Source: an uncultured Verrucomicrobiota bacterium
Lineage (GTDB): Bacteria; Verrucomicrobiota; Verrucomicrobiia; Verrucomicrobiales; Verrucomicrobiaceae
Assembly: GCA_903848465.1 (NCBI GenBank)
Contig: CAINGK010000122.1
Location: 1 to 64,000 of the forward strand
Reading direction: 5' to 3'
Length of the DNA: 64,000 nt
The notes beneath the pieces were generated by a model. That model saw only the letters and a list, made by a program, of their open reading frames with translations. It ran no database searches and was not told where the DNA came from. Positions 24,675-37,115 of the stretch are shown one piece after another. The first letter of the stretch is position 1; each line of letters opens with the position of its first letter. The position numbers and the translations under genes are program-made.

Positions 24675-24700
24675 GGGGATCATCTTGATCCCCTTTCTTT
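24675..24700 (+). terminator. GGGGATCATCTTGATCCCC palindrome with T-rich tail
   Basis: GGGGATCA-TCT-TGATCCCC is a perfect 8-bp stem with a 3-base loop, followed by TTTCTTT, just after lsrF. It is shaped like an intrinsic terminator. The same palindrome recurs at 25442, 25494, 37055 and 37094, so it also belongs to a dispersed repeat family. Confidence 0.6.
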
Positions 24701-24890
24701 GTGCGCAGATGCGCAGACCTGTTGAAAATCACAAAGACCTTGCGTGCCAATCAACCTTTTGAGTACCTTTGTGCATTATGGAAACAAAACCGTCGGCTAT
24801 CAAGGCGTTGGGACAAAGCCGGCAATTTTGTTTACCATCCACCTGTTAGGCGATTCCTCGCGTCCCTAGTAACGAAAGCCAATCAATGCG

Positions 24891-25256
24891 ATGCCTTCCG
24901 AGCCAACAGTTCTTATCCACGGCGACGCGTGGAAGTGTGCCGATATCGCCGACCAGATTGCAGCGTGTCGCACACATACTTGGCGGCGCGAGCACTGGCA
25001 GCGGCGTCCAGCGCTTGTCCATCGCGTCGGAGGCACCGTGGCGCTTTATCACGGCCAGACTTTCGACCCCGCCAAGATTGACCTCGTGCCGTACGGTTGG
25101 AGTCACGACCATTGCGCCATCTGCTGGTGGACACTTCACGACTCAGGCAGCGACGAGGAGCTCATTGGCTACACCGACGAGCGCGGCGATTGGGTCTGTG
25201 CCGAGTGCTACCAACAGTTTCTCGACACCAACTCCAATGCGACCGGAAACGCCTAA
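24891..25256 (+). CDS. Hypothetical protein with two CxxC motifs
   Basis: A 121-residue protein I cannot name. The C-terminal half holds paired cysteines (HDHCAICWW and WVCAECYQQF), suggesting a small zinc-binding site; the N-terminal half is rich in His, Trp and Arg (CRTHTWRREHWQRRP). It is the only ORF in the cassette-like segment, and its stop codon TAA lies inside the attC-like site's first core motif (GCCTAAC), as is usual for cassette genes. No ribosome site is evident before the ATG, and the gene probably relies on an outside promoter. Confidence 0.6.
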   Translation: MPSEPTVLIHGDAWKCADIADQIAACRTHTWRREHWQRRPALVHRVGGTVALYHGQTFDPAKIDLVPYGWSHDHCAICWWTLHDSGSDEELIGYTDERGDWVCAECYQQFLDTNSNATGNA

Positions 25257-25374
25257 CCAAGCGCTGCAGAGAACAGCTCCGTGCGTCACGGCTGCTGCTT
25301 CCGCCACCGCCTTTCCGCCCACCACGTAGCTACCGCGCCGCACTCCACTGTCTCTGAGCTTTGGGTCGTTAGCG
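25251..25374 (+). other. attC-like recombination site
   Basis: The left end GCCTAACCAAGCGCTGCAGA and the right end TCTGAGCTTTGGGTCGTTAGCG pair imperfectly, with the outer cores (R''/R') GCCTAAC and GTTAGCG and the inner L''/L' parts CAAGCGCTG and GAGCTTTG. A variable centre of about 80 bases separates them, and the total length of 124 bp fits attC sites. The site has not been tested for recombination. Confidence 0.55.
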
Positions 25375-25441
25375 CCAAAGACGCGAGGCTGAGACCAGAC
25401 CATTTACCAGACGTTTACAGCTATTGGTCTCACTGTTGAGC

Positions 25442-25512
25442 AGAGGGATCATTTTGATCCCTCTAGCGTCCACTACACCCACCTCTCCCAAACGGGGATC
25501 AAGATGATCCCC
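25442..25512. repeat. REPIN-like doublet of GGGATCA palindromes
   Basis: AGAGGGATCA-TTT-TGATCCCTCT (25442-25464) and GGGGATCA-AGA-TGATCCCC (25494-25512) are two hairpins in opposite orientation about 30 bases apart. The reverse complement of the second (GGAGGGGGATCATCTTGATC followed by CCCGTTTGG) matches the copy at 37051 over about 29 bases. It sits just upstream of the DUF3817 gene, and the track's upstream start at 25504 lies inside it, so that start is rejected. Confidence 0.65.
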
Positions 25513-37050: not shown

Positions 37051-37115
37051 GGAGGGGGATCATCTTGATCCCCGTTTGGAGTCCGGAATTGGTGGGATCA
37101 AGATGATCCCTCTCC
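37051..37115. repeat. REPIN-like doublet of GGGATCA palindromes
   Basis: GGGGATCA-TCT-TGATCCCC (37055-37073) and GGGATCA-AGA-TGATCCC (37094-37110) lie 20 bases apart in opposite orientation, 34 bases beyond the stop of mlaA (which reads on the minus strand). The arrangement equals the doublet at 25442. It may act as a terminator for the mla operon. Confidence 0.65.

Follow-up and report, generated by a model that had tools for sequence, protein, structure and literature searches.

The locus described here is probably a minimal integron that lacks an integrase gene of its own. Judged from its sequence, it combines a putative promoter with an attI site and a single gene cassette, and it would be served in trans by an integrase encoded elsewhere in the genome. 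It lies in the window, the stretch of 64,000 nucleotides analysed as a whole, in an intergenic part of the chromosome between a gene for a DeoC/LsrF-family aldolase and a DUF3817 gene. The observations comprise the identity of its attC site, the homology of its left flank to an attI adjacent to IntI, the recurrence of such units without intI, an intact intI ORF in the same genome, and differing contents at sites of this kind.

The cassette, its attC site and its protein

An earlier note, drawn up from the letters of the window, had reported a GTTAGGC core, an ORF with paired CxxC motifs whose stop codon falls in GCCTAAC, a 124-bp attC-like site and a closing GTTAGCG, and all of these were found where it had placed them (Table 1). 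The promoter-like and attI-like region upstream (24730-24851) had been overlooked. The proposal that an integron cassette lies between chromosomal genes was borne out by a match to an attC model, and a tblastn search of the window detected no integrase (best E 0.74), as the note had also claimed. One ORF, which carries the motifs DHCAICWW and WVCAECYQ and is oriented as the attC site, fills the stretch from the crossover point to attC, as in a gene cassette. Local shuffling of the window produces the motif layout about 0.09 times per shuffle, so the layout alone is weak evidence.

Table 1. Features of the integrase-less unit in the window
Feature	Position	Strand	Remark
Promoter-attI module, full R2 match	24738-24851	+	R2 95.3 bits, E 8e-27; window among the model sequences
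-35-like TTGCGT of putative cassette promoter	24740-24745	+	conserved CTTGC block; putative function
-10-like TACCTT, 18 nt after -35	24764-24769	+	family consensus TTAGCTTT
attI-like site, crossover G24845^T24846	24780-24851	+	homologous to attI beside IntI, G000:C110
Left core GTTAGGC	24845-24851	+	coordinates checked
Gene cassette, 523 bp	24846-25368	+	two GTT cores as bounds
Cassette ORF, 121 aa, HxxCxxC + CxxC	24891-25256	+	zinc-ribbon-like by motif only
attC, 124 bp, GCCTAAC ... GTTAGCG	25251-25374	+	R3 model and covarying stem
ORF stop TAA	25254-25256	+	within GCCTAAC 25251-25257
Right core GTTAGCG	25368-25374	+	coordinates checked
TTAGCG of right core	25369-25374	+	presumed target sequence, from crossover geometry

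attC sites are recognised by inverted cores (RYYYAAC...GTTRRRY) and a conserved stem, and the window site has both. Its right core deviates from GTTRRRY at the two final positions, a deviation to be expected since both would belong to the target site after crossover. The covariance model R3, built from seven attC sites of other genomes and none from the genome of the window, matched exactly the 124 bp listed in Table 1 with 120.6 bits (E 1e-29), so that the attC model search suggested in the earlier note gave a clear answer. Among 48 genomes of the genus, blastn detects homologues of this attC in 13 and the covariance model in 34; the same attC family is also present on integrase-bearing contigs of other genomes, e.g., G026:C179, G024:C26 and G009:C86. 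When twelve homologous sites were aligned, 37 stem cells had changed on both sides, compared with 16.7 ± 3.3 in shuffles and 2–7 in slid controls, and 83.6% of the stem cells were paired, compared with 28%–37% in the slid controls. Folding of the bottom strand as single-sequence DNA, another check named in the earlier note, was no better than shuffles (z −0.36), and neither strand stood out; single-sequence folds being uninformative, covariation was used instead. A search of Rfam gave no match for the site. Homology and covariation constitute the evidence beyond chance, and on these grounds 25251-25374 is assigned as an attC site.

A 9-bp inverted repeat, CCTCGCGTC / GACGCGAGG, is located at approximately 24855-24863 and 25382-25390, just inside the left end of the cassette and just outside its right end. 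Several further cassettes of the genus have CTCGCG in their leaders as well (L118, L192, L195, L115).

The cassette protein belongs to no Pfam, NCBIfam or PADLOC family, its PDB matches are weak, partial and without pattern, and AlphaFold run without an alignment gave a pLDDT of 38. Among 56 genomes searched, the ORF has a single, decayed relative (L061/L080, G010:C72), which is frameshifted, truncated at its 5' end, 75%–78% identical and accompanied by neither attC nor attI. The dN/dS estimated between the two, about 0.19 over 56 codons, shows purifying selection on the cassette ORF.

An ordinary conserved chromosomal gene followed by a chance attC-like hairpin would be compatible with the random expectation for the motif layout, but such an explanation is refuted by the attC homologues, the covarying stem and the covariance model; the gene is, moreover, absent at the same place in relatives and has only the decayed relative mentioned above. 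We regard it as having virtually no credibility. The earlier note had named the lack of an attC match, together with conserved neighbours of the ORF in other genomes, as grounds for abandoning its reading. Instead, the attC match is strong, and relatives keep the neighbouring genes but lack the cassette there.

The left flank, the host genome and the insertion site

The sequence preceding the cassette (24735-24851) aligned with that upstream of the intI gene on contig C110 of the same genome with a local score of 75, which none of 1000 dinucleotide shuffles reached (maximum 43). The common core consists of ACAAAACC, GGCTAT, GACAAA, GCAAT, TGTT and ACCATCCAC, followed by the crossover TGTT. The window site thus has the homology to an intI-adjacent attI and the terminal crossover GTT by which an attI is recognised. 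Matches to the IntI-adjacent attI sites of other genomes are weak, with 4 (G020), 15 (G015) and 53 (G024) of 1000 shuffles scoring as well. In the window and its closest homologues, attI is preceded by an A-rich stretch, CTTGCG, 17–18 nt and TTAGCTTT, and the conserved stretch begins about 13 nt before the −35-like element. This conserved 5' edge is particular to the promoter-attI module, and intI-adjacent attI sites differ in this respect. The R2 model of the module comprises 12 sequences, the window among them, and homologues of the module in other genomes were also found independently by blastn.

By its homology, the left flank (about 24780-24851) is an attI homologue and not an arbitrary GTT site. 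The conserved block TTGCGT-18-TACCTT (24740-24769) is a putative cassette promoter (Pc); a generic promoter scan of the window did not call it, and TACCTT is a poor sigma-70 match. A transcription attenuator within attI (a GTTGGG/CCCAAC hairpin followed by a T-rich stretch) was considered and rejected, as the pairing is broken or relies on G-T pairs in several copies.

The earlier note had named insertion at secondary sites as one of two possibilities. A lone cassette entering such an attG site off target is a known phenomenon (cited in PMC12901181) and would agree with a single intergenic attC and an intI located elsewhere in the genome. It is nevertheless improbable here, since attG targets are unrelated to attI, while the target in the window is homologous to the attI next to the genome's own IntI, is accompanied by a promoter-like block and belongs to a recurring module.

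The window comes from a 101.8-kb contig in a draft genome of 6.05 Mb, and its aldolase, DUF3817 and RNase H neighbours are syntenic across the genus, which makes contamination unlikely. The intI gene of this genome, for which the earlier note had recommended a search along with further attC sites, resides on contig C110 and not beside the window attI, where a complete integron would have it. It is an intact, uninterrupted ORF of 328 aa that scores 378 bits against TIGR02249 (cut-off 265). The genome has another attC of the family on C70, and C167 carries a weak one. At about 9492-9600 of L058 (G000:C110) a 20-bp inverted repeat, TTTACCCTCCTATGCCGTTG...CAACGGCATAGGAGGGTAAA, has intI on one side and attI on the other; it is also found at L122 and L125 and is possibly a regulatory hairpin of intI.

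In the minimal-integron reading, attC × attI recombination would have placed the cassette at the crossover point. The enzyme would be the IntI of C110 acting in trans; the attI beside its gene is a homologue of the window attI. The unit would have arrived already without intI, and the cassette ORF would be read from the putative promoter about 80 nt upstream of the crossover point.

The unit is absent from this spot in relatives with the same neighbours. At this position, those sampled have a terminator hairpin only, a RAYT gene, or another ORF accompanied by REP palindromes, and the exact insertion edges are consequently unreadable. REP palindromes surround the unit (24675-24693, 25444-25462 and 25494-25512), and at the orthologous spot of G025 (L035) a RAYT gene (Y1_Tnp) lies between the same palindromes, while G058 has another ORF there. 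Given that relatives lack the unit and that it sits within a REP framework, the unit was most likely gained in this lineage, at an insertion-prone spot. As for the palindromes themselves (GGGGATCATCTTGATCCCC), further copies occur at 37055-37111; in total, the window contains 10 matches on both strands, compared with 0.22 expected.

The palindromes on both sides, together with the RAYT gene and the other ORF found at this spot in G025 and G058, would suit REP/RAYT transposition that brought the unit as cargo. This is a highly improbable explanation, as at 17 other attI-unit loci the palindromes are absent in 15 and do not adjoin the unit in the remaining two, and the conserved edge of the module is at the promoter, not at the REPs.

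Integrase-less modules across the genus

Searching 48 genomes of the genus for full modules (R2 of at least 36 bits) yielded 32 in 11 genomes. The highest number, 8, is that of G020; weaker matches and matches to attI only were also obtained. When 190 genomes of the order were searched, all R2 matches at E ≤ 0.001 fell in the taxonomic family that includes the genus. Past the crossover GTT, the sequences turn into unrelated ORFs, several of which end in attC. Of 62 attI matches, 18 are followed within 3 kb by an attC that the model detects on the same strand, two have one upstream (in tandem units) and none has one on the opposite strand; about 0.02 would be expected by chance, given 71 attC matches over roughly 290 Mb (an estimated total). 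For 22 of the 32 modules the model found no attC within 3 kb, partly because other attC types exist. A second attC type follows the ORFs at L190 and L191 (TAACAAAACGGATGCAG... and similar); the R1 model covers it badly, so the attC counts are probably too low.

No intI was detected within 8 kb of any of the 32 modules, and tblastn upstream of them revealed no integrase trace. The promoter-attI unit without intI is a recurring kind of locus at many unrelated places, not one isolated relic; the unit in the window would be one of these dispersed modules, each with no, one or few cassettes. Two or three modules stand in tandem at L118, L119 and L115. At these loci and at L199, the tandem modules are about one cassette length apart and represent candidate attI-type cassettes. 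Tandem attI sites could offer a route for the spread of modules, although this is a suggestion only, as the window unit has no upstream cassette.

Contents differ behind attI sites at the same position. Between the genes for PEPCK and a ceramidase-like protein, five genomes (G002, G027, G029, G012 and G030) carry an attI, and the distance from it to the ceramidase-like gene is 0.66, 1.7, 3.0, ~4.9 and ~4.6 kb, respectively; the ORFs differ among the first three. Only 160 bp separate the two genes in G022. The genomes examined yielded no intI at this locus, and the region upstream of attI is also variable. Similarly, G067:C272 and G008:C3 have the upstream flank and attI in common and different ORFs downstream. 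Differing contents behind a common attI indicate that cassettes came or went at such sites. This turnover at fixed sites may reflect an integrase acting in trans or may predate the loss of intI.

The possibility that a complete intI-attI-cassette integron lost its intI by deletion in place, leaving a dead relic with no activity in trans, has to be weighed here. CALINs have been proposed to arise, among other ways, by losing intI (PMC8618304), and broken integron integrase genes lie beside otherwise normal attI sites at L121 and L125, in G008 and G032. In addition, the assemblies of 8 of the 11 module-bearing genomes contain no IntI that exceeds the cut-off, although most genomes are apparently MAGs with broken contigs, in which intI could be missed. 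For many units, then, action in trans may be past history. We nevertheless consider decay in place rather unlikely for the unit in the window, because no intI trace accompanies any of the 32 full modules, about 95 bp separate the aldolase stop codon from the start of the window module, the conserved 5' edge of the module is its own and unlike intI-adjacent attI, and the spot is free of integrons in relatives that share the neighbours. The old array that the earlier note had also envisaged comes nearer to these findings than its secondary-site insertion, but the lack of an intI trace and the recurrence at many places do not fit one relic. In the best reading, the modules are integrase-less mini-integrons that would be served in trans, some of them being relics by now.

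Relation to known integron systems

CALINs are common, and lost intI, off-target insertion and rearrangement have been proposed as their origins. Like a CALIN, defined as a cassette without intI (PMC8618304), the window locus has an attC and no neighbouring integrase. With its single attC it stays below the default CALIN threshold of two in IntegronFinder 2.0, which ignores single attC sites by default and does not seek attI outside class 1 (PMC9024848). CALINs are, however, defined by attC only, whereas the window unit and many copies in the genus retain attI and a promoter-like block. With sedentary chromosomal integrons, the unit has attI, a putative promoter, the attC × attI geometry and a chromosomal location in common, but it differs by the lack of a local intI, by very short arrays and by the presence of several separate attI loci in a genome.

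A further parallel is provided by the attI-type (delta-attI) cassettes of mobile integrons, in which a class 1 or 2 attI lies downstream of resistance genes; attI-ORF-attI units, which were excised efficiently by IntI1 in assays (PMC12901181), have counterparts in the tandems at L118, L119 and L115. Unlike that of delta-attI cassettes, the attI of the genus bears a promoter-like block, precedes the cassette and is scattered over chromosomes. Cassettes at attG sites are likewise lone, intergenic and away from intI, but the target in the window is an attI homologue. In the open-access literature, we came across no account of integrase-less attI units that are dispersed. What sets the locus apart is the retained attI with its promoter-like block and the multiplicity.

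A distributed integron, in which one remote integrase exchanges cassettes at many intI-less sites per chromosome, whose first cassettes are expressed and which possibly spread as attI-bearing circles formed at tandem attI sites, is a tentative extension of the minimal-integron reading that we hold to be possible, if doubtful. An integrase-less locus that keeps its attI and promoter-like block, recurs many times within a genome and varies in content at an orthologous position makes it directly testable whether a single integrase serves many attI sites in trans. A further suggestion is that surveys based on intI and attC overlook expressed landing sites, because attI is sought only in class 1 integrons. 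Integrase-less units of this kind are scattered through related Prosthecobacter genomes, so the landing pads of integrons can apparently exist at a distance from the enzyme serving them.
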